64,000 nucleotides of DNA from Daucus carota subsp. sativus (lineage: Eukaryota > Streptophyta > Magnoliopsida > Apiales > Apiaceae), in NCBI RefSeq assembly GCF_001625215.2, contig NC_030384.2, positions 37,730,390-37,794,389 on the forward strand, read 5' to 3'. This document shows, piece after piece, positions 6,379-25,800 of this stretch (the first letter of the stretch is position 1; each line of letters begins with the position of its first letter). The notes under the pieces were generated by a model. The model was not told the origin of the DNA and did not search any database. It was given only the letters and a program-made list of their open reading frames with translations. The translations under genes and the position numbers were made by a program.

Positions 6379-6780
6379 AGTATAATGAGAAGGGAGCTGG
6401 GCGGGACATCACTAGGACTAGGACTAGTAGAGTAAGAATGGAGTCACTGGACATCACTGGGACCACTAGGACTAGTAGAGTAAGAATGGAGTCAGTGGAC
6501 ATCACTGGGACCACTAGGACTAGTAGAGTAAGAATGGAGTCTAGTATAATGAGGGAGCTGGGCAATGAACTCCAAAAGGACTAGTAGAGTAAGAATGGAG
6601 TCACTGGACATCACTGGGACCACTAGGACTAGTAGAGTAAGAATGGAGTCACTGGACATCACTGAGACTAGTAGAGTAAGAATGGAGTCTAGTATAATGA
6701 GGGAGCTGGGCAATGAACTCCAAAATGGACCTAGACTGGACATCAGTGGGACTAATAGAGTAAGAATGCAGTCTAGTATG
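6379..6780 (+). repeat. Minisatellite of about 48-bp units with a higher-order pattern
   Basis: The motif AGTAGAGTAAGAATGGAGTC occurs six times, with a seventh variant (AATAGAGTAAGAATGCAGTC), mostly 48 bp apart and separated by ACTGGACATCACTGGGACC. A second module containing ATGAGGGAGCTGGGC plus AATGAACTCC interrupts the array twice, with a partial copy at the left edge. This gives a composite two-module repeat. Open frames across it on both strands are by-products of the unit length being a multiple of three. Confidence 0.9.
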
Positions 6781-7285
6781 ATCATGGTGAATCAAGTTTT
6801 GATTCTTAGAAATTCTCAGAGTGTACGAAATTTTTGGCGAAGATTTTGTCGGTCCGGATGAATTGAGTGGGGTTGAATCCTAGACAAGTGATAACATATT
6901 TGTTCAAAATTACATGCTTGGATATTTGAAAATTTCAGTACTTACTAATATTATTTAGCAAATCAATTTTATTCAATCGGCTTATAAATAAATCTTGAGG
7001 ATTTAATTATAAAACCATCACAAATGGTATTGATTAAATTGAACTCATAATATATTGTATAAAATAAGTTAAATACGGAGGACAAGAATACCTCATTGAA
7101 GCTCAAAATTTTAAAAATAATTTCTATAATTTTTATTTATAATTTTTGTTAATAGTGTGCATTAACTATAGAATTTCCGTAGGGTTTAACATGCTGTCAT
7201 AAAGTATAAATACACAAAACCCTGCATCTCATTCTATTCATTAACCTCTAAAACAATACAAAACTTCTGTATCTATAGCTCTGCA

Positions 7286-9519
7286 ATGGCCCAAAGCTTC
7301 GAGTCATTAGGTCTAGGTCCCAACGTAATCAAAGCAATCAAACGGAGAGGATACAGTGTCCCCACACCACTTCAACAAAAAGCGGTGCGGCTTATACTCT
7401 CGGGAGCAGATGTACTGGCTTTGGCTCGTCCTGGCTCCGGCAAAACGGTGGCGTTTCTGGTGCCCATGCTCGAGAGGCTGCGGGATCATTCGGAACAAGG
7501 CAGCGGGGCTAGGGCTTTGATTTTGTCTCCCACGGTGTCTTCGGCGCTTCGTACTCTTGAATCTGCTCAGAATTTGGGCCGCTATACTGGTACTGATGCT
7601 AAAACAAACCCATGCATGTAATTTTTGTGTTTTATTTTCGTGTCTTGTACCGAATTGTCGGGTATATTTGTAACGGGTCAGTGTTGTTTATGGTTCTGGC
7701 TAAAAGATGGATTTGTGTGTAAATTGAGTTTTTGTATTCAAGATGATTTAACATGTTTATTATGAAATCGGTGAGTAGAAAAAGAAGTAGAGAGCTGAAC
7801 TATATATAATAACCTTCATCTATATATGTATATGCTAAATCATGCTTTGCAAGTAATTCTTGAATTATGACAAAAAAAAAAAAGTAATTCTTGAATTGAC
7901 TTGAGAAATATACTTGTTTATTGCAGATCTTCGAATTGGTTTATTAATTGGAGGGGATAGCAGGCAAAGTCAGTGTGAAGAATTGGCACAGAACCCGGAT
8001 ATTATTATTGCAACCCCTAATAGGATCATGCACCATTTGTTTGAGCTTAAAGATTTGTCGTTGCATGATGTAGAGTATGTGGTTTTTGATGAAGCTGATA
8101 GTATCCTTAACATGGGATTTGAGGAGCAGCTGCATCAAATTATGGCCCATGTTAATGATAATCGGCAGACATTGCTCTTCAGTGCAACTTTACCAAGTGC
8201 CCTTGTCGAATTTGCCAAAGCTGGTTTACGAGATCCCCAGCTTGTGCGAGTTGACTTGATTAGCCCTGACTTGAAGCTTGTCTTTTTCACTTTAAAGCAG
8301 GAAGAAAAACATGCTGCATTGTTGTACTTAATTGAGGAGAAGATTAGACCAGATGAACAGACTTTGATCTTTGTTTCCACAAAATATCACGTTGAGTTTC
8401 TTAATGTTCTCTGTCAAGAAAGGGGTATTCGTCCATCTGTTTGCTATGGTGATATGGAACAAGATGCTCGAAAGATGGCTGTATCCCAATTTAGATCAAG
8501 AAACACTATGCTGCTGATCGTGACTGATCTAGCAGCCAGGGGGATTGACATTCCTCTGCTTGATAATGTCATCAACTGGGATTTTCCTCCTATACCTGAG
8601 ATTTTTTTCCGTCGAGTAGGACGAGCTGCAAGGGCTGGTCGGACTGGTACTGCATTTTCTTTTGTCACAAATGAAGATATGCCCCATGTTTTAGATCTTC
8701 ATCTCTTTCTTTCAAGGCCTATCAGGGCTGCTCCCACCGAGGAAGAGGTTTCACATAATGTGAATAATCTCATGTCTAAAATTGATCAAGCAATTGCCAA
8801 TGGAGAATCCGTTTACGGGCGTTTCCCTCAGACAGTACTTGATCTCTACGCAGATAGGGTTAGGGAGTTACTGGATTCTTCTACCGAATTACATTCATTG
8901 GAGAGGCCGTGTACTCAAGCATTTCGTTTTTATAACAAGACAAAAGCAAAGCCTTCCACGGCGTCTGTCAGAAGATCAAAGAAGTTGCCCCGTGATGGAC
9001 TTCATCCAATATTCAAAAGTTTGCTAGGTGGTGATGAGATAACTGCACTTGCCTATCTTGAGCAGTTAAAAAAATACAGGTACCTTATACATGTTACGGT
9101 TAGGTGTTTAAAATGTAATTCTGTTTTGTGTTGTATTTAGATGAGGTTCTAATTAATAATAAATCATTCTGTTGTATACTAGACCTAAGCGGACCATCTT
9201 GGAAGCTGAAGGTGAAGTTGCTAATTCAAAGAAAGTAAAGGTAAGGTTTACATTTGTTGGCATGAATTCCTTTGTTTTTTTACTACTTTCTAAATGTGTA
9301 ACTGCAATATAGGCTTGTATATAGTCAGTCTATGGTTATATATTAGCGGGTTCTCGATATGCTTCATTACTTTAGTTTCTAGTAAAATTTTGATATTCAT
9401 TAGATATTTAATTAATGCTTTGGCATGGTGTGTGATTGAAGCGGTCTTCAAGTCATTGGGTTGATGTAATGAAAAGGAAAAGAGCTGTTAATGAGGAGAT
9501 CATTATAAAGAACATATGA
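7286..9519 (+). pseudogene. Decayed tandem duplicate of the RH29 DEAD-box helicase gene
   Basis: Paralogue of the intact gene at 13363-27696, with the same exon borders: exon 1 7286-7589, exon 2 7927-9079, exon 3 9183-9240, exon 4 from 9442. In exon 4 the loss of one A relative to the intact copy shifts the frame and creates a TGA at 9517-9519, so the product would be about 530 aa instead of 799. Helicase motifs are damaged: motif Ia PTRDLAL is replaced by PTVSSAL, TPGR by TPNR, and the His of HRVGRAAR by Arg. ARPGSGKT, DEAD, SAT and ARGID remain. The N-terminal basic leader of the intact gene is absent; the frame starts MAQSFESLGL. A truncated expressed protein cannot be excluded, but loss of helicase function is likely. 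Confidence 0.78.
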
Positions 9520-10880
9520 AACACTCAATAGAGTGTGCAGAAGAGGTGAACTTGATGTTATGAACATATCAGTAAACATTTTTGACATCATCAGCATGAT
9601 AGGACTTGGTCACTGATATGTACTGTTGTCCTTGTATTATCATCTTGTTTTGTATCGCTGAAAAATTAGACATTCCTATTTTGTCACTGAATTTTCCAGG
9701 GTGTAATCCTGATTTAGAAGCTAAGATGATCAGTTCAGAAACTTTTGTCTTCCATATAGGTTCGTAGTGTCCATAGTTTGTGCCAGTGCCTGAGCCGACT
9801 CTGATATACTGATATATCTAATGCATTTATTTAATAGTGTAGTACTTGGTAGAGACTAGAGACTGGTTTTGAACTTTTGCCTGAATTTGCTTGATTATTT
9901 GCTTATAGAATCCCTTTCAATATTTAATTTGTCATTAACAATGGAATAAACCCCTTTGAACAATATGCATCTTTTGTGGCTTTTACTTTCTTTTGGTGTT
10001 AGACTGATAGCTCCATATACTTAACTGGATTATTCAGCCAGTGTTTCGAAAAGAAGTTTCAGTGTGGTTTTCCATTGAATTACAGTGCAGTGGGACCTTG
10101 GTATTTTTGTTTCTATGTGGCATCACCATTAAACTGGAAACATGTTCTTGTAGCAGTTAGACATGGCAACATAGTTACGCATTTTATAAACATTCATTTG
10201 CTACTTAAATTTGACAAGATCAATGGTTCAAAAACATATTTAAGTAATGTTGTATCCAGCGAGACAATAAAAACGATATGAAAATCTGCAGAATTCCAGA
10301 TGTGCAAAGCATGTGCTTGGTCATGAATTCATAAAGAGGAAATCATCTTGTGGTTATGCTGCTGCATTTTGATTAATGTACTTGAACTTCTTTGTAAAAC
10401 AAGTGAATAAGTTATTCTTTTTGCCGTTATCAGAATTATAATTCCTAATTAACATTCACATATACTTGTAGCTCATCTTGTATATCGCATTCATTTTTTT
10501 TAATCTTGCCAGTGTGTTAATGAAAATTTTAAATGGGAAAAAATTGTTTAATGGCTTACTAATATCTGGTTCTAAAAGGTAGGCAAAAGGCTTCATAAGT
10601 TCGGTGTCACAAACCAAGAAAGATTTTTTTTAGTCAGGAAATAAGAAGCTTTTCAGTTGAACATGAAACTATATTATGCTATTGGCTTGATAAAAACTTC
10701 TCTTTGCCGGAGCTGAGTAATGTGATTGTGTTCCTCATGCATTCGTACTTGCACTTGGAATGATGGTTGTAAGTTGTAACAATTCCACCTGCTAGAATTT
10801 GTTTTGAGTAAATTATTAACTTCTTTGCTGGTTTTATTTCAGCATTCTGAGGAAGGACTTTCAGAAAAGGGTTAGACAGC
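9520..10880 (+). pseudogene. 3' exon and intron relics of the duplicated RH29 copy
   Basis: Homology to introns and downstream exons of the intact gene continues past the premature stop. At 10563-10618 an exon 6 equivalent has an in-frame TAG, an 18-bp deletion between short CTTC repeats, and a destroyed donor (CCAAGAAAG instead of CCAAGTAAG). At 10843-10875 an exon 7 equivalent ends in GGT TAG. The exon 5 equivalent was not found. The duplication therefore originally covered much more of the gene than the surviving open frame. Confidence 0.7.
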
Positions 10881-13362: not shown

Positions 13363-16300
13363 ATGGACTACGAAGCTCCACTCCTTGTAAGCTCCGTAAC
13401 GGAGCTCAAAAAGAAGGAAAAGCTCCAAAAGAAAGCCAAATCAGGCGGATTCGAGTCATTAGGGTTAAGTTTCAATGTGTTTAGAGGCGTTAAACGGAAG
13501 GGATACAAGGTGCCGACGCCGATTCAGCGCAAAACGATGCCGCTTATACTCTCTGGCTGCGATGTTGTGGCCATGGCTCGGACTGGTTCCGGCAAAACGG
13601 CGGCGTTTTTGGTGCCGATGTTCGAGAAGTTGCGGAATCATTTGGATGAGTGCGGTGGGATTCGGGCTTTGATTTTGTCGCCGACGAGGGATTTGGCGCT
13701 TCAGACTCTTAAATTTGCTCAGGAATTGGGTCGATATACCGGTACTGATACGTATTTATTGTATGTGTGTGTGTGTGTATGCTCCTGCGAGTATCTACGG
13801 TCTGAGATTTTTTGATTAAGTAATCGCCGACTATTAATTTGTAGGTTGTTGGTAAAGAATGTGAATTGATAATAGTGTCTGAATTGTTAATAAAAAAAAG
13901 TATGATATTATTAATTATATGAGAGATTGTTTTTAATAAAGAGGTAACAAGGAAGAAGATGGAAAATTGAACAAGTTTAAGGTGAACTTGATATGTAGGA
14001 AGAGAAAGTTGAGAAATAAGCATAAAGGTGGAGAATTTGACTGTAAGATATATAAGATTGCATTCCTCTAGTTGGTGGCTCGGTGCTCATCATTGGTCTT
14101 CTGCTCAATTTTGTATTCATCTATAATAAATTGTTCCTATTGGGGTAACTCTTAAAAGGACTACTTTGTTCTACTAGTGCATCTGACATTCTTTGACACC
14201 GGAAGCAATGGAAACAAGTAGATCAGGGTTTAATACTCGCCACTCTAAGGAATCCACCCTAGAGATAAGAGCAAACTCGCCACCCAAAGGAACCCAACCC
14301 CAGGGATAAGAGTATAAAGATCAATATTCTTTTAACAAAAGAAATATTTAATTTTTGTATTTTCAATTTTAGCTTTTGAGTACTGCCGTCGGTAGGGGAT
14401 AATATGTTTGCAAGATTACACCTCAGCTGTTCGATCTCTTTGTAGAGTCTTCTTTTCCTGTTCCAAATCGAGAACTTTTTTCTCGTAATGTTGTTTTAGA
14501 ACAGATGTGTCAGCACCCGCAAACCGCTTCATTTCAGCCTCCTTTTGTTCAAGTTTTTTGTCCAATTCTTTGAGCTCCATATCCAATTTTTCCTGAATAC
14601 TAGAATGTTCTAGCTCTTTCATATCAACTTCAAATACTTTATTAAAATCTGGTAGTGCGAGAATAGGAGCTTCAGATACCTTTTTTTTTAGGAGTTCAAA
14701 GCTCTTTTGTGCTTCTTCTGTCCAATGAAAGCTCCCACCTTTCAAACATTCAGTGATAGGTGCAATAATAGAGCTGAAATTCCTTATGAATCGCCGATAA
14801 AAAGATGCTAGGCCATGAAAGCTCCGGATGTCATGAAGAGAGGCTGGTGTAGGCCAGCAAGTTATTGCTTCAACTTTATTGTTATCCATCTTTAATCCAT
14901 CAGCTGAGACGACGAATCCAAGGAACACAAGGCTTTCTGCAAGGAAGTGGCACTTCTTCAGATTTGCATATAATTTTTGCTCTCTTAGCACCTGAAAAAT
15001 GGCACGGAGATGTTCCAAATGTTGTTTTTCATCACGACTATAGATCAGAATGTCGTCAAAATAAACTACCACAAATTTTCCGATGAATGGTTTAAATATG
15101 TCATTCATGAGTCTCATGAATGTTGAAGGAGCATTAGACATTCCAAAAGGCATAACCATCCATTCATACAACCCATCTCTTGTCTTGAAAGCCGTCTTCC
15201 ATTCATCTCCGGGCCTTATACGAATTTGGTGATAACCGCTGCGTAGATCGATTTTGCTGTGCACTTTAGAGCCTGAAAGTTGGTCAATCAGGTCATCAAA
15301 ACGCGGAATAGGAAAACGGTATTTGATAGTAATTTTATTGACTGCTCTACTATCAACACACATCCGCCATGAACCGTCTTTCTTGGGTACAAGGAGTGCA
15401 GGGACTGCAAAAGGACTCTTACTTTCTTTAACCATTCCTTTATTCAAGAGATCATCAACTTGCCTCTGTAATTCTTCATGTTGTTGTGGACTCATTCTAT
15501 AGGCTGCTTTGTTAGGCAATGAGGCTCCCGGAACCAGATCAATGCAATGTTGTATATCTCTCATTGGAGGCAGCCCAGGTGGTATTTCTTCAGGAACTAC
15601 ATCTGAAAATTCAAGAAGTAGAGGCTGAACTGGTGCTGGAATATCATATACCTCTTCATTTTCTTTTAAGATAACCAAGGCATAAGTTTCCTCGGACTCA
15701 TGAACAGCCCTGCAAATTTCTGCTCTTGACAGTAGATTGTTTCCTTCCCCTTTACAAGGTTTAGGAATGTTGTTCATTTTTGAAGGGCCCAAAATAACCT
15801 TAACACCATCTTTAACAAAAGTATAGGTATTTTTATAACCATCATGGTGAGTCCTTCTATCATACTGCCAAGGTCTACCAAGAAGTAAATGACATGCATC
15901 CATAGGAACAACATCACATAATACTTCATCTTTATACTTACTACCAATAGAGAATTGTACCAAACATTGTTTATCAACTTTTACCTCATTGCCTTTGCGA
16001 AACCATGATAGCTTATAAGGACGTGGATGCTTCTCCGTCTTCAAATTTAATTTTTGAACCATGTCGTTGGACACCACATTCTCACAGCTTCCTCCATCTA
16101 TGATGACATTGCACACCTTTCCTTGTGAAGTGCATTTTGTATGGAATATGTTACTACGAAGCCAAGAATCTTCTTGAGCTTGCATACTATTCAAACTCCT
16201 TCGAATTACCAAAGATTCTCCCTGATCTTCATAAGTAATCTCCTCATCCTCTTGGCCACTTCCTTCAGCTTCCCATGGAGTCTGTTCTTCAATTTCTTCC

Positions 16301-19300
16301 TCAAAAATGGTTATGACTTTACGGTTTGGACATTCAGAGGCTATGTGTCCATAACCTTGGCATTTAAAACACTTTATTGAAGCTTTGGTGCCACTTCCCC
16401 GACTAGTATTGGCTGTGCTATCATTCTTTTTGGATGATTTCAGATCTGACCCCTTATCAGTAGGAGGAGATTTTCTTACGACACTTGAATGGGTTGTACC
16501 AGAAGCTTGATTTGAGAACCGATTATTGCGTCCCTTTGGCTTTTGTTGTTTCTCCACCTTAAGAGCAAGTTTACATACATCTTGATAAGTCCAGAAAGGT
16601 TGCAGATTAACGACATCACTGATTTCCTCCTTTAGTCCACCAAGAAATCAAGCAATGGTTTGCTCCTCTGGTTCTACCACCTCGCAGCGCATCATGAGAT
16701 TCTCAAATTCTGTCATATAATCTTCCACGGACAGATTTCCTTGTTTAAAATTATGAAATTTGAGAAAAGCATCTTGCTTGTAATTGTCTGGCAAAAACTT
16801 TTTTCGCAGCTCTTTCTTCATCTTTTCCCAAGTGCAAATCTTAGCCTTTCCATCACGAACTCGTTGCTTCTTAAGATGTTCCCACCATAAGGAGGCATAT
16901 TTCTTCAATTTCACCGCCACTAATTTAACCTTTTGTCGATCATGCACATCATTGTATTCAAAAACTCTTTCCACCGTATTAAGCCAATCAATAAATTCAT
17001 CTGGATGGTTTCTTCCTTCAAAATCTGGAATTGTGATTTTCACATTGTAAGCACCTTGAAAATTGTTGAATTCTCTACGAGGTCGTCTAGGAGCAGATGT
17101 ATGACTTGAGTGATCATCTGATTCTTCATGAAAGGGATTGTAGTCCTCATCATCAGGTGTTGATGAGCCATTTTCTGAGTTATGACTGCCTGTGTTATGT
17201 CCTCTGCCTGCTCCACGTGCAAGCTGCTGTTGTAGCTCCCCTACTTGTCTTCTCAACTCCTCTAATTCAATATCACGTACATTCCGTCGACGTGGAGGCA
17301 TGGCTCTGATACCAAATTGACACCGGAAGCAATGGAAACAAGTAGATCAGGGTTTAATACTCGCCACTCTAAGGAATCCACCCTAGAGATGAGAGCAAAC
17401 TCGCCACCCAAAGGAACCCAACCCCAGGGATAAGAGTATAAAGATCAATATTCTTTTAACAAAAGAAATATTTAATTTTTGTATTTTCAATTTCAGCTTC
17501 ACCATCAGTATCTGTAGCTTCTGTGTCCGACTGATCGAACAGGGATTTTTTTGGAGCAGACCCAACAACATCAAATTTAAGGTAACCTGCAAATTCATGG
17601 TGTTCGGAAGTATTCGACTTCTGTATTCGAAGGAATTCACCTTCTAATTCCGTCACATAATTTTTAACCAACCCAATATCTCTCTGGTTCAGATCAGCGT
17701 CAATCTCCTCCCAAGATTTACCACTACGTGCCAATTCAAGTTTCATGATCCGGTTATCCTTTTCTACCTGATCATCAATAGCTCGTTGCCAGAGATGCTT
17801 AGAGCTGATCCGACATTCTTGAAGCTGCCGTTGTAGCTCTGCATTGCTAGCCTCAAGCAAAGAAATCTTCTGCTTTAAAATCAGAAGTTCCTCGAACGGC
17901 CTACCAGATTCTCCATGAATGTAAAGCAACTCAGCCTGCAATTGCTCAATTTGGTTCCGCATTCTTTGCATCTGTGCTGCAGCTGGATCGCGGTTGACCT
18001 TTCCAATGATATATCACACTGCACCCAGAACGTCCTAGATAAAATCAGTTTATTCTTCGAAGTTGACTCAAAATATCCTCAGAATTCTGAATTTTCTGCG
18101 TCATTCTCCCCGGGTTGAAAAGGACTCGTCCTCGAGTCTTTATTGCCGTCATTATCTATGTAAGGTGAGAGATCGGACACATTAAATGTAGCAGACACAC
18201 CATAGTTACCAGGCAGTTCAATCTTGTAAGCATTTTCACCAATTCTTTGAAGTACTTTAAATGGGCCATCAGCTCTAGGACTTAACTTTCCGGATCTTCC
18301 TCTAGGGAAGCGTTCTTTACGCAGATGAATCCATACCAGATCACCCTCTTTGAAGACAACTGGTTTTCAGTACTTGTCTGCTTGCTTCTTATACTTCTCA
18401 TTTTGCTTCGCTATTTTTAATCTGACATGCTCATGTAGCTTCTTGATGTGATCAGCTCTATCAGCTGCATCTCCACTGAAATGACTAGTAGCTGGTAGCG
18501 GAGCTAGGTCCAATGGACTAGAAGGATTCTGACCATAAACAACCTCAAAAGGACTTATTCCCGTTGTCTGGCTTATTGACCGATTGTATGCAAACTCGGA
18601 TTGGGCTAACGTCAGATCCCATTGGCGTGGATTGTTACCAACTAAACTCCTCAATAGATTTCCGAGACTCCTATTAACAACTTCAGTTTGTCCATCCGTT
18701 TGTGGATGATGGGACGAACTAAATTGCAGATGAGTTCCCAGCTTCTTCCATAAGGTACGCCAAAAGTGACCCGTAAACTTTGTGTCACGATCTGAAGTTA
18801 TTGTCTTTGGAACACCATGGAGTTTCACAATCTCTCTGAAATATAAGTCAGCCACATGAGAAGCATCTAATGTTTTAGAACATGGCACAAAGTGAGCCAT
18901 TTTTGAAAATCGATCAACTACTACCATTATAGAATCTTTGCTTCGTTGAGTTCTTGGTAACCCAACTACAAAATCTAAACTCACATCTTCCCAAGGTGCA
19001 AGAGGAACCAGAAGTGGGGTGTATAATCCTGTATTTTGTGAACGACTCTTTGCAATGCGGCAAACTCGACATCCTTCTACATGGCGTTTTACATCACGTT
19101 CCATCCTTGGCCAATAAAAATTTTCTTGCACAAGAGCAAGGGTTTTGTCTCTGCCAAAATGCCCAGCAAGTCCTCCTTCATGAGCTTCAAAGATTATAGC
19201 TTTCCTCAAAGAACAAGCGGGAATGCAAAGACGATTATTTTTGAAAAGAAAACCATCTTGAATAACAAAGTCACGAATTGGCCTATTGGAAGAATGTTCC

Positions 19301-22300
19301 CAAATCTGACAAAAACAAGGATCATCTTTGTACAGCTCCTTTAGAATATCAAATCCCAGCACCTTTACTTGCATAGTGGACATCAATGATCTTCTTCGAC
19401 TTAAAGCATCAGCTACTTTGTTCAGAGCACCAGATTTATGCTTGATAGAAAAGGTAAATGATTGAAGAAATTCCACCCATTTGGCATGTCGAGCACTTAA
19501 CTTCTGCTGAGAGTTGATATACTTCAGCGCCTCATGATCAGAGAAGAGAATGAACTCCTTATGTAAAAGATAATGTTGCCAATGGTCCAATGCTCGAACA
19601 ATAGCATAGAACTCTTTATCATAAGTTGAATAATTTTTACGACCATCGTTCAATTTTTCACTGAAGTAGGCAATAGGTTGTCCTTCTTGGCAGAACAGCA
19701 CCAATTCCCACATTTGAGGATATTTTGAGGATATTTTGAGTCAACTTCGAAGAATAAACTGATTTTATCTAGGACGTTCTGGGTGCAGTGTGATATATCA
19801 TTGGAAAGGTCAACCGCGATCCAGCTGCAGCACAGATGCAAAGAATGCGGAACCAAATTGAGCAATTGCAGGCTGAGTTGCTTTACATTCATGGAGAATC
19901 TGGTAGGCCGTTCGAGGAACTTCTGATTTTAAAGCAGAAGATTTCTTTGCTTGAGGCTAGCAATGCAGAGCTACAACGGCAGCTTCAAGAATGTCGGATC
20001 AGCTCTAAGCATCTCTGGCAACGAGCTATTGATGATCAGGTAGAAAAGGATAACCGGATCATGAAACTTGAATTGGCACGTAGTGGTAAATCTTGGGAGG
20101 AGATTGACGCTGATCTGAACCAGAGAGATATTGGGTTGGTTAAAAATTATGTGACGGAATTAGAAGGTGAATTCCTTCGAATACAGAAGTCGAATACTTC
20201 CGAACACCATGAATTTGCAGGTTACCTTAAATTTGATGTTGTTGGGTCTGCTCCAAAAAAATCCCTGTTCGATCAGTCGGACACAGAAGCTACAGATACT
20301 GATGGTGAAGCTGAAATTGAAAATACAAAAATTAAATATTTCTTTTGTTAAAAGAATATTGATCTTTATACTCTTATCCCTGGGGTTGGGTTCCTTTGGG
20401 TGGCGAGTTTGCTCTTATCTCTAGGGTGGATTCCTTAGAGTGGCGAGTATTAAACCCTGATCTACTTGTTTCCATTGCTTCCGGTGTCATTCTTTCTTAT
20501 GATTGTTAATTTCTATCAAGAGTAGGGCTGTAAAATGATCCGGGTGATCCCGGGTACCCCTCTGCTCAAGTACCGGATCATATTATTTTTAGTTTGTCCA
20601 GATTTGGGTCCGGGATCGTTTTATTCGGATCTAAACCGATCCCGGGTATTTGAGATTCGGATCTGAACCGGATATGATCCAGTATCGTATTTTCTATTTT
20701 TTAACCGGGTAGTTTATGATCCATCGAATATGAGCCGGATATGATCCACTAACACTAAGTATCATTATTATTTCATTTGTTCAAATAACTATCATTAGTC
20801 TAAGTAAACATAATATTATAAAGTATAATAATTTTAAATTAAAACTTATAGTTATATATTGATATATATCATTTATTAAATATATATGAAGATAATAAGT
20901 ATGATCACATTAAATAAATCATATTTTATGAAGATATAAACTTAAATAAGATATTAAAATTTTATAAAATGATAACTATTTACTTGCAAATATGATGGTG
21001 TTAAAATATAATATGTATATAAGTTTGAATCGAATATGAACCGCGGATCATATTCGGTTATTCGGGTAGGATCATATTATGAAAAGTTATATGAGCCCGG
21101 ATCTGAGCGGGTATAGGTGTGCTCGTATCCGGGATCATATATTATACGGGCTTAATTTTTCCGCCAGATTTGGATCGTTTTCAAAACGTATATGAGACAT
21201 GTATCATATTTTCGAGCCGAATATGAGCCGAGACACCGGATAGTCCGTATCGATTTACAGCCCTAATCAAGAGAGAGACATGTAGTTTCTCCTGCATGAT
21301 GCTTGTATATATGATTATGCATTTTGGGAGCATATTCATTGTATTAACATAATATTGATTGCAGATCTTCGAATTAGTTTATTAGTAGGAGGCGATAGTA
21401 TGGAAAGTCAGTTTGAAGAGTTGGCACAGAACCCCGATATCATTATTGCAACCCCTGGTAGACTCATGCACCATTTGTCTGAGGTTGAAGATATGTCACT
21501 GCGTAGTGTGGAGTATGTGGTTTTTGATGAAGCTGACTGTATCTTTAGCATGGGGTTTGCTGAGCAGCTGCATCAAATTCTGTCCAAACTTAGTGACAAT
21601 CGTCAAACCTTGCTCTTCAGTGCAACTTTACCAAGTGCCCTTGCCGAATTTGCCAAAGCTGGTTTACGAGATCCCCAGCGTGTGCGACTTGATTTGGAGA
21701 CTAAGATTAGCCCTGACTTGAAGCTTGTCTTTTTCACTTTAAGGCAGGAAGAAAAACATGCTGCATTGTTGTACTTAATTGAGGAGAGGATTAGACCTGA
21801 TGAACAGACTTTGATCTTTGTTTCCACAAAATATCACGTTGAGTTTCTTAATGTTCTCTGTCAAGAAAGGGGTATTCGTCCATCTGTTTGCTATGGTGAT
21901 ATGGACCAAGATGCTCGCAAGATGGCTGTATCCCAATTTAGATCAAGAAAGACTATGCTGCTGATCGTGACTGATGTAGCAGCCAGGGGGATTGACATTC
22001 CTCTGCTTGATAATGTCATCAACTGGGATTTTCCTCCTAGACCTAAGCTTTTTGTCCATCGAGTAGGACGAGCTGCAAGGGCTGGTCGGACTGGTACTGC
22101 ATTTTCTTTTGTCACAACTGAAGATATGCCCCATGTTTTAGATCTTCATCTCTTTCTTTCAAAGCCTGTCAGGGCTGCTCCCACTGAGGAAGAGGTTTCA
22201 CATAATGTGAATAATCTCATGTCTAAAATTGATCAAGCAATTGCCAACGGAGAAACCGTTTATGGGCGCTTCCCTCAGACAGTTCTTGATCTCTACGCAG

Positions 22301-22803
22301 ATAGGGTTCGGGAGTTACTGGATTCTTCTACCGAATTACATTCATTGGAGAGGCCGTGTACTAAAGCATTTCGTTTATATTACAAGACGAAAGCAAAGCC
22401 TTCTAAGGAGTCTGTTAGAAGAGCAAAGAAGTTGCCCCGTGAAGGACTTCATCCAATATTCAAAAGTTCGCTAGGTGGTGATGAGATAACTGCACTTGCC
22501 TATCTTGAGCAGTTGAAAAAATACAGGTACATTATACATGTTATGGTTAGATGTTTAAAATGTAAGTTTGTTTTGTATAATATTTAGACGAGGCTCTGAT
22601 TAATATTGAATCAATCTGTTGTAAACTAGACCCAAGCAGACTATCTTGGAAGCTGAAGGTGAAGTTGCTAAATCAAAGAAAGTAAAAGTAAGATTTACAT
22701 TTGTTGGCATGAATTTCTTTTGTGATTTATACTTTTCGAATGTGTATGTGCAACATAGTCTTGTCTATAGCCTGTCTATGGTTACAGACACACACATACA
22801 TTA

Positions 22804-22839
<36 letters not shown>

Positions 22840-25800
22840 TTATATTAGTCGGTTGGTTCTCGATATGCTTTATTGTACTTCACTTTCTAGTGAAATTTTT
22901 TAATTATTACATTGATATGTTATGTGATTGAAGGGGTCTGCAAGTCAAGGGGGTGATGTAATGAAAATGAAAAGAGCTGTGCATGAGGAGATCATTAATA
23001 AAGAACATCAGAAACACTCCAGAGAGTGTGCAGAAAAGGTGAACTTGATGTTTTGAACATATGAGTAGACATTTTTGACTTCATCAGCATGATAGGACTT
23101 AGTCACATATATACAGCAACTATCGTACTCGTATTATCATCTTGTTTTGTATTCTTAGAGCAAGTAACAAAATATATCTGTCAAACTGTTAAGCACTTGA
23201 GGGAGCTGCTGAGTGCTGAGACAGGCTTGCAAATGCTGAAAAATTAGACATTTGTTATTTTGTCACCGAGTTTTCCAGGGTGTGATTCTGAAGTTAGAAG
23301 ATAAGATGATAATGTTCAGATACTTGTGTCCTCCGTATAGGTCCTTAGTCATGTGCGATTGCCCGGAGCCAACTCTAATATCTTATGCCTCTTCTCTTAT
23401 TTTATAATTTCTGCCTCGTAGAGATTGGTTTTGTACTTTTGCCTGAATTTTCCTGATCTTCCCTTGTAGGATCCCTTTCAATAATGTAGTGATTGTACAT
23501 TTGTATAATCTGCTCAGGGCATCTTAAAGATTAATGCCCAGTGGCAGCCAATGTTTAAATACCTTACTTTATGGAGCTGATTTTAACTGTGACAACATGT
23601 AAAATGTTATATAATGTTTTTTAGATCTCATATTGTGAGCTAACCTTATTGTATTGTGCACAGAAATATGAAATGGATGATGATATGGATGAAGTTATGG
23701 AAAACGTTCCTACAGCTGGCATTGAAAAGAAAGGTTTGTCCTTGGCTAACTCTTTATCGCATGTTTCGGTCTTGTTTGTTCTATGTTTCTTGTATATTCT
23801 TCATCAGAGTTTTTACATGGTTAACTTTTGCATTGCTAAATCTTTATGAGCCACCATATTAGAGATCATTATATGAGTGGTAGAGGAATCAACTATGAAA
23901 TAAATACCCTTAAGAAGTATCATTTGTCGCTTTTACTTTTGGTGATAGGCTGAAAACTCCATATACTCAATTGGATTATTCAGCCAATGCTATAAAGGAG
24001 TTTTAGTGTGGTTTCCCTTGAATTACAGCCCAGGGGAACCTAATAGCATTTTTGTTTATATGTTGGGCATCAGAAACTGCAAACATGTACATGTTGTAGA
24101 CTTGTAGTAAGCCATCTCACCGACGTAGTATAACAATCATTTGCTACTTTAATGTGACAAGAATAGTAGTCCGCCAGCATATTTAAGTAATATTGTACCC
24201 AGTGTGATGTAAAAAATAATCTGTGGAATTTCAGATGTACAAACCACGTGTTTGGTTATTAACTTATACAGAAATAGATCAGTAATCCTCTTGTGGTTAT
24301 GCTGTTGCATTTTGACTGTGCTTAGACGTTATTGTAATACAAGTGAATAAGTAATGGTTTTTGCTGTTAGGATGTAATTCCTAATTAACATCTCATGTTT
24401 GTGTAATGCTTGCAATGCTTGTGAGACATGCTCGTATACTGTGTTCATTTTTTTATTCTTGGCAGTTTATTAATGAAAAATAAATGGGCAAAATTTGTTC
24501 ATTTTACTAGTTTCTGGTTCTAAAAGGAAGGCAAAGAGCTTCAAGGATGAGGAGTACTTCATAAGTTCCGTGCCAACAAACCAAGTAAGATTATTTTGTC
24601 AGGAAATAAGAAATTTTAGAGTTGAACAGAAAACCATATTATGCTACAGGCTTGACAAAAAACTTGCCCCATCGTCTGTGTTCTGTAAAGTGATTGTGTT
24701 TCTCCTGTATCTTTGCGTGTTTCTGAGAATGATGGTTGTAACAATTCCACCTGCCAGAACACGTTGTTCAGTAAACTATTAACTTCTTTGTGGTTAATCA
24801 TTTCAGCATTATGAGGCAGGACTTTCAGAAAAGGGCAGCAGAGGGTTTGAATCTAATAGGTAAAGCTTTTTTGCCTGTTTATCTACTTTATAAGCATTTA
24901 TTTATTATGTAATTAAACTGTGCTGGCCTTTGAACTGCTATCCTATTCGAGGACTTGGTTGGTTTGAATTTAGTTCCTTTTGCTAGTTGATATTCAATCT
25001 GTATATGATAAGATATGGAACAAATGGAATCGAAATAGGTATCATTGGCGCCAGGTTGTTAAAAGGAGTTACTTAAGATGCTGTCACGAAGTAAATCATT
25101 ATAAATGTAATGAATTGTCGTATTTATTTAAATTTTTGGAAGTTGGGCTTATACTTGATTGTCATGGTATTGAAGTAAATCCATATCCTTTTTTTAGGGA
25201 ATTATGAATATGTCATTTGGATAGTGTAAAATGAAGCCCTGTTCCTAAATATACCATAGGATTATCTTATATGAATGTTCTTTATCTGAATAACCGTTTT
25301 GTTGTATTTCTTTGTTTTTTTACATTTTAATGAATTAGGTATTTTATAAAGGTTACTTGGCAGATTTTATAACTTTAGTTAAAAAGCGTCAATGATTTTA
25401 CGAAGTTTAGAATGAAAAAGGATCATGTAAGATTTCATGGTTATCACATGGGCAGTATTGTGCAAAAATATTTTATTTTAATATAATACAAGCATATAAT
25501 TATTTTTTTACTTCATATTTAAACTAGGAAACAGATGTGTTTATTATGTATTCTATCAAATAAATCTATGTACATTACAGACTTGTCGACTTGTTATAAC
25601 TAGTCTTCTGGAAGGCACTCAAGTGGCTCAAGGGACTTGGCATCGTGATAAGTAATTACCAACAAAACCACACTTATGGTTTTGGTGCATAGCACTCATG
25701 GAAAAATAATTCTTGACACATAGCACTTGTGGAAATGAGTAGGTGCTTTTGTTTTTTTCCCGTTTTAAAATTGGATATCGTCTCTGATTACAAATCTGAA

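Follow-up and report, generated by a model that had tools for sequence, protein, structure and literature searches.

A carrot retrotransposon insertion with two adjacent intron-free KIN-4C kinesin pieces joined to the same long terminal repeat point: a probable case of misdirected strong-stop strand transfer

A single insertion at positions 14194-20489 of a 64,000-nucleotide stretch of the carrot genome (Daucus carota subsp. sativus; G000:C4:37730390-37794389 of the 441-Mb assembly, here called the window) carries two pieces of a KIN-4C kinesin without introns, and each piece is joined to the same internal point of a retrotransposon long terminal repeat (LTR). The likely explanation, and the one we favor, is that minus-strand strong-stop DNA was misdirected at the first strand transfer onto a KIN-4C-type mRNA. 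A sequence-only reading of this DNA had proposed that mechanism, and it holds up as the best account of the data, with its timing at the first transfer being the presumed part. The same reading had placed the event at 14371-20313, a span that omits the outer copies of the LTR-derived unit.

Kinesin pieces and their common boundary

Piece 1 (VNRDP..GEAE; 17492..17998, minus strand) matches KIN-4C protein P0001 at 84%, and piece 2 (KELEHSS..QKL; 14370..14622, minus strand) matches it at 91%. The two are consecutive in the protein, where P0001 reads ..GEAEVDVKELEHSS.., and both are joined to the same sequence, (A)ATTGAAAATAC, which begins a unit of ~175 bp; the two adjacent pieces with one shared boundary that had been described are thus real. 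Comparison with KIN-4C places piece 1 in native exons E1-E4 and the start of E5, and piece 2 in E5-E7, with a 2-nt deletion relative to native gene A (C4:49.99 Mb). Piece 1 spans four exon-exon joints of this gene and piece 2 spans two, and none of the six introns is present, which was the proposed check on the capture. Because all six are missing, the kinesin sequence was taken from mRNA.

A native KIN-4C gene already carrying the boundary sequence had been named as the observation that would overturn the proposal. ATTGAAAATAC is absent at either joint site in both native KIN-4C genes found in the assembly: gene A reads GCTGAA/GTTGATGTG and AAGCTA/AAGGAAAATTAT, and gene B reads GCTGAA/GTTGGAGTC and AAGCTC/AAAGAAAAT. 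As both genes lack R there, a native kinesin that contained it is rejected for the two genes found. Piece 1 also lacks the codons for KIQ. The 9-nt gap lies within native exon E4, which rules out alternative splicing as its source, and the three-residue gap occurs in the captured sequence only, among alignment rows of which four lack the whole stretch or nearly so. We considered whether a kinesin-reverse transcriptase (RT) fusion protein exists elsewhere; no RT domain appeared in the Pfam column for the 120 listed of 420 matches, and the top scorer, P0013, is a kinesin with an internal duplication.

The nature of the ~175-bp unit follows from relatives of the element in the same genome. Twelve of the 13 measured LTRs, intact or solo, are 621-625 bp long and run TGACGCAG..GGTGTCA, the outlier being the 889-bp 3' LTR of locus L014. 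The kinesin-linked unit corresponds to the final ~175 bp of this LTR, its 3' part, and the kinesin joint is an internal LTR point 31-39 nt downstream of the start of the TATA box TATATAAA. A plant transcript is expected to begin about 31-39 nt below its TATA box. By sequence position, then, the joint fits a TATA-directed start, where kinesin would stand at the 5' end of the element RNA. Because it is the 3' part of the relatives' LTR and its joint lies at this distance from the TATA box, the unit is very probably R-U5 (repeat and unique 5' regions), with kinesin in place of the unique 3' region (U3). The earlier identification of a 177-bp unit as R-U5 is therefore supported, and in element copies without kinesin the boundary corresponds, as R-U5 predicts, to the internal LTR point just downstream of the TATA box.

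We inspected 22 sites matching the R start at 0-1 mismatch. Fifteen follow a U3 with TATATAAAG, two follow a U3 broken there, four follow piece 1, and one follows piece 2; the five kinesin joints fall at one LTR point, as closely as the shared nucleotides allow it to be placed. Ten sites with three mismatches fell outside this inspection, and a reversed control pattern gave four matches. Among 14 element loci compared, kinesin was found only in a composite on C2, described below. The ~177-bp unit might instead be a complete LTR, with kinesin beside the polypurine tract, since TGAAAATAC..GTGTCA has TG and CA ends. This reading is refuted by the LTR ends and target-site duplications (TSDs) of other copies, and we give it almost no weight: the duplications lie outside TGACGCAG and GGTGTCA, including those of a solo LTR flanked by CATAT.

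Pfam domains in the window pieces come in the order gag, protease, RT, RNase H, and integrase, with the protease matches below the Pfam cut-off, and intact copies show continuous gag-to-integrase blocks. The LTRs run TG..CA, the TSDs are short, and a primer binding site (PBS) follows the 5' LTR. On this sequence evidence the element is classed as a Ty3/gypsy-type LTR retrotransposon. Six of eight loci were readable at both outer ends (in L016 and L018 an LTR end was not found), and all six have matching 5-bp flanks (L010 and L011, CATAG; L014, AGATC; L015, GAAAG; L017, AAAAG; solo LTR L020, CATAT). The full elements L010 (C8:33.13 Mb) and L011 (C8:3.57 Mb) share their TSD and the same variants near the U3/R boundary, and are probably a segmental or assembly duplication of one element. 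At G000:C4:26114500-26127000 (L018 and L019) there is a tandem element array with three R-U5 units, two of them after a U3 broken at the TATA region (L034 and L035).

Matches at the joints and division of the templates

Short matches at the two presumed priming sites had also been proposed, and these are real at slightly different positions. At the piece 1 joint, native A AAGCTGAAGTTGA and element AAGCTGAAATTGA agree at 12/13 nt; when the 13-nt end of the element was compared with 786 positions in 798 nt of native A exon sequence, this site scored highest. Gene B reaches 10/13 at most (three mismatches). When a 777-nt native stretch was base-shuffled 2000 times, a 13-mer with no more than one mismatch to the element joint sequence turned up in 5 of the shuffled versions. 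At the piece 2 joint the agreement is 7/9, and the R-mimic argument rests mainly on piece 1 because this second match is only fair. With the A gene and the C2 copy used in place of the donor, the nucleotides shared at template switches number 10 at RT/kinesin, 8 at piece 1/R, and 5 at RNase H/U3, while piece 2/R has a 2-nt overlap inside its 7/9 match; one polarity switch of the C2 composite shares 11. The four window joints thus show the short similarities (10, 8, 5, and 2 nt) characteristic of LTR-mediated retroposition.

A strong-stop running off at the 5' end of its RNA would account for one fixed joint, where ordinary internal switching would scatter. It is also conceivable that the first transfer went correctly to the 3' R and that the growing cDNA then left the element at the U3/R boundary through microhomology with kinesin mRNA. 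The 8 nt AAGCTGAA at 17492-17499 of piece 1 are also present at the element's U3/R boundary, piece 2 shares AAGCT, and copying from R into U3 passes this very point. Such a later departure would however need two jumps at the same point to different kinesin sites, the second with a weak match; the point coincides with the expected RNA start below the TATA box; and a strong-stop must jump at its end, whereas an elongating cDNA need not. We regard it as unlikely.

The two templates are also divided in an orderly way. The end of piece 1 and the start of piece 2 fall within one 9-nt stretch of the kinesin mRNA, GAAGTTGAT, and the same nucleotides plus one T occur at the place in RT where piece 2 joins. 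RT sequence runs as far as GAAGTTGAT, and RNase H sequence begins 7 nt further on (CCTCAAATG). The window cDNAs thus split both the kinesin mRNA and the element RNA almost without overlap or gap, and each template was used about once. For the two coincidences together, two independent uniform breaks give a rough figure of 8e-5, which favors misdirected first transfer.

Several observations weigh against misdirected first transfer. Searches of the assembly did not reveal the donor gene: the nearest gene is 87-90% alike for the piece 1 exons, and the best protein among the matches obtained is 84% alike. The joint is taken as the RNA start from its place in the sequence. Extending the comparison at the piece 1 site weakens its standing: with 19 nt it ranks first of 780 positions in a tie, and with 29 nt including U3 it ranks third of 770, with four tied. 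The piece 2 match (AAGCTAAAG versus AAGCTGAAA) ranks third at 7/9, with 6 tied, and ninth at 8/13, with 18 tied. Piece 2 moreover keeps the native A of AAGCTA, and therefore its strong-stop would end ~6 nt further in than the piece 1 match suggests, unless a G-to-A change came later. The figure of 8e-5 for the partition of the templates is post hoc, assumes uniform breaks, and covers only the 798 nt of kinesin examined. Finally, the segment between the inverted arms described below is oriented opposite to that expected from simple self-priming of the first cDNA, which calls for either a flip or a third cDNA.

The insertion, its two U5 ends, and a second composite

Direct sequence comparison shows the insertion to be flanked by TTCTT on both sides (14189..14193 and 20490..20494, plus strand, identical). 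This matching 5-bp repeat encloses the whole composite, by which separate insertions are rejected. On the left, R-U5 copy A (14194..14369, minus strand) ends in U5 (..CCGGTGTCA) as the left end of the insertion; it is a repeat of copies B and C and corresponds to the 3' portion of the LTR in intact copies. Kinesin piece 2 follows, and then the RT/kinesin crossover TGAAGTTGAT (14623..14632, minus strand), 10 nt common to the native A gene and the element RT: native exon E5 reads ..GCTGAAGTTGATGTG.., and all 8 of 8 element loci examined read GTATTTGAAGTTGAT. Element gag, protease, and RT occupy 14633..17301 on the minus strand (Pfam Retrotrans_gag, zf-CCHC, and RVT_1), with an in-frame stop in gag at 16648-16650, and the pol frame continues into kinesin. 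Read directly from the sequence, the PBS TGGTATCAGAGCC (17302..17314, minus strand), which we take to be of initiator Met tRNA type, is followed in the plus direction by the internal R-U5 copy B (17318..17491, minus strand), identified by repeat comparison; in its own orientation the copy is followed by ATT and the PBS.

Beyond piece 1 come the first 105 nt of U3, beginning TGACGCAG (17999..18103, minus strand; matching the LTR start of L010), and adjoining this LTR start the sequence AACCCGGGGAGAA (18104..18116, minus strand), presumably a polypurine tract. Element RNase H and integrase lie at 18117..19716 on the minus strand (Pfam RT_RNaseH, Integrase_H2C2, rve, and SH3_Tf2-1), with an in-frame stop at 18367-18369. 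The direct sequence at 19712..19740 (plus strand) holds a polarity-switch joint between RNase H and U3, with 5 shared nt (CCTCA on the minus strand) and an 11-nt duplication. Inverted copies of part of U3 (19722..19808; inverted repeat I1), of piece 1 (19809..20315; inverted repeat and sequence comparison), and of R-U5 (copy C, 20316..20489; repeat comparison and direct sequence) follow on the plus strand, and the U5 end of copy C is the right end of the insertion. The minus strand read from 20489 accordingly runs inverted R-U5, inverted piece 1, inverted U3 part, RNase H, integrase, polypurine tract, 105-nt U3, piece 1, R-U5, PBS, gag, protease, RT, piece 2, and R-U5. The inverted arms (17318-18085 and 19722-20489; 768 nt) have one internal mismatch, the junction end aside.

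We take the insertion to be a single integrated cDNA composite from reverse transcription of a young Ty3/gypsy-type LTR retrotransposon. An origin by genomic capture, or by post-integration recombination between neighboring insertions, would have to contend with the loss of all six native introns, with one TSD for the whole composite, and with R-U5 copies A, B, and C that differ by no more than 1 nt in 173. The three R-U5 units, one of them internal, do resemble the recombinant complexes of PMC1950507, and even so we hold this origin to be very improbable.

In canonical minus-strand strong-stop transfer, in retroviruses and LTR retrotransposons, the R-U5 cDNA moves to its acceptor by R homology. 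The acceptor here, in contrast, would be a host coding sequence resembling the R start. Under misdirected first transfer, two tRNA-primed minus-strand strong-stop DNAs (R-U5) would reach the 5' end of the element RNA and anneal to sites similar to the R start in a spliced KIN-4C-type mRNA, and not to the 3' R of the element RNA. One cDNA (cDNA-a) would copy piece 1 and then move to element U3, the polypurine tract, integrase, and RNase H. The other (cDNA-b) would copy piece 2 up to the point of meeting the start of cDNA-a, pass through the 10-nt match into the RT region, and reach the PBS. With both cDNAs on the same kinesin mRNA and element RNA, each stopping on meeting the other, the templates would be partitioned between them. 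Second-strand transfer via the PBS and one polarity switch (RNase H to U3) would join the two, and integrase would insert the U5/U5-ended molecule with a normal 5-bp duplication. The collision and the order of joining are, like the annealing at an R mimic, steps that we infer.

Both outer ends of the window insertion are U5, and the normal pattern of one U3 end and one U5 end is seen in neither the window nor the C2 composite. In the usual scheme, a strand with a U5 5' end begins at a tRNA-primed cDNA. U5 at both ends therefore means two tRNA-primed cDNAs, and as both strands begin with U5, these must be accompanied by an odd number of polarity switches, of which the window insertion shows one, at 19712-19740. 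The U5 ends, the inverted duplicate of piece 1, and the second composite all go beyond what the sequence-only reading had noticed.

This second composite, at C2:53935207-53940491 (L009:2708-7992), has the TSD ATTGT and U5 at both ends. On the left it ends in a normal, U3-containing LTR, and on the right in kinesin-R-U5. Piece 1 occurs in it twice, with the same R joint as in the window; the kinesin sequence here continues upstream into motor-domain sequence, and the point at which it gives way to other sequence differs between the two arms. Long inverted repeats hold piece 1 at both loci (window 17318-18085/19722-20489; L009 6106-6910/7190-7992). Between the window and C2, piece 1 differs at 3 of 499 aligned nt; with the A gene as reference, the window has one change of its own and C2 has two, so that simple descent of either copy from the other does not fit.

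Recurrence of the kinesin-R event is likely but not proven on these sequences, because one chimeric RNA could have served twice. One earlier misdirected transfer might have produced a KIN-R chimera whose R-ending transcripts were later ordinary acceptors, so that the two loci share the piece 1/R joint by descent and not by recurrence. The joint and the 9-nt deletion are identical at both loci, and the C2 arms combine different kinesin-to-element switch points with the same joint, as such descent would have it. It leaves piece 2 unexplained, sits poorly with the private changes in both copies (one in the window and two on C2), and is met by no third locus with the joint, either among the 22 R starts or in the piece 1 search. 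Descent from a chimera, which we rate as a minority possibility, is compatible with misdirected first transfer for the first event, and our rating of it is about recurrence.

The two exons on either side of the insertion each encode half of a DEAD helicase domain, one covering profile positions 1-72 and the other 75-166, which places the insertion within an intron of a DEAD-box helicase gene. The helicase region is tandemly duplicated (window 7286-10700 and 13363-24700, in blocks 75-98% alike), and only the second copy has the insertion. As an empty site, the tandem copy was uninformative: the introns did not align, exon edges apart. Elsewhere in the window, and by eye, ~1 kb between inverted TTGGGCCCAAACACACTT-like copies (1560-2605) looks like a DNA-transposon remnant, and 6400-6790 holds short tandem repeats in units with GTAGAGTAAGAATGGAGTC.

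The donor gene, known systems, and significance

A genome search with piece 1 returned, besides the captured copies, only exons of gene A (87-90%) and gene B (77-85%). Searching with Daucus carota protein P0002 (a 99% match to the C4 KIN-4C gene across residues 977-1197), with 36 of 677 first-look candidates scored, brought up these two KIN-4C genes again, together with less closely related kinesins. In a tree, piece 1 groups with A-type genes of Apiaceae, and its placement within them is not separated. Captured sequence and gene A differ by a synonymous divergence (dS) of 0.277 and a nonsynonymous divergence (dN) of 0.049, a ratio of 0.18, and on this ground neutral decay within the element is rejected as the chief source of the divergence of the kinesin sequence. 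Evolution was looser on the captured branch, with 16 nonsynonymous and 10 synonymous changes against 5 and 21 on the A branch (11 unpolarized). These substitution patterns indicate that the captured kinesin diverged mostly under constraint. Because of that, and of its place among A-type Apiaceae genes, the donor would be a third A-type copy that this genome has lost or lacks, or that is missing from its assembly. Protein P0003, also named Daucus carota, is a shortened A-type KIN-4C of 469 aa in which the peptide of the first exon is joined to other sequence; no gene for it appeared in the piece 1 and P0002 searches of this assembly.

Template switching between LTR-element RNA and host mRNA at microsimilarity is already known (PMC5408686). 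As in LTR-mediated retroposition (Tan et al. 2016, as described in PMC5408686), the present case has a co-packaged host mRNA, switching at microsimilarity, and element ends used by integrase, with intron-free host sequence between element sequences and the TSD outside. It differs in that the switch is at the presumed R start, that two sites of one mRNA are involved, and that both ends are U5. The maize Bs1 gene transduction, described in outline in PMC5408686, is likewise an LTR retroelement with host coding pieces. Template-switched LTR complexes with one TSD are known as well (Sabot and Schulman 2007, PMC1950507); these share the single TSD and an internal shared LTR, and two packaged RNAs are invoked for them. 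They consist of two elements in one orientation, and host mRNA, inverted arms, and U5/U5 ends are not described there. The outer R-U5 units in the window, by contrast with their outer LTRs, are inverted. A 2026 review of plant gene capture (PMC13317346) describes switching between unrelated RNAs, and the words strong-stop and strand transfer are absent from its main text. A literature search of partial coverage, by titles and abstract openings, gave no report of strong-stop transfer to a host mRNA in a retrotransposon; we do not claim that none has been published. The kind of event is known; a joint fixed where R presumably starts, a site in the mRNA that resembles R, and U5 at both ends set this case apart.

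As a minority possibility, A-type KIN-4C mRNA may be a repeated decoy acceptor through a chance copy of the R start (12/13 nt), with misdirected cDNAs joining head to head into integrable two-U5 molecules, and the window copy, within its helicase intron, may be transcribed into a hairpin that gives rise to small RNAs against KIN-4C. Of the 21-mers in the window arm, 28 have perfect matches in the examined exons of native A KIN-4C, and none matches B; the arms are a possible natural hairpin source of small RNAs.

Here are two natural LTR cDNA insertions made by two U5 ends, and they therefore suggest that plant integrase may not need one U3 and one U5 end. If misdirected first transfer is correct, host-gene capture would be tied to one step of reverse transcription, with the same element nucleotide at each kinesin joint as its genomic footprint. 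It would also predict that mRNAs resembling the R start are captured preferentially, so that R mimicry would tell which host mRNAs a family captures. A normally invisible step of gene capture would then be recorded in this insertion.

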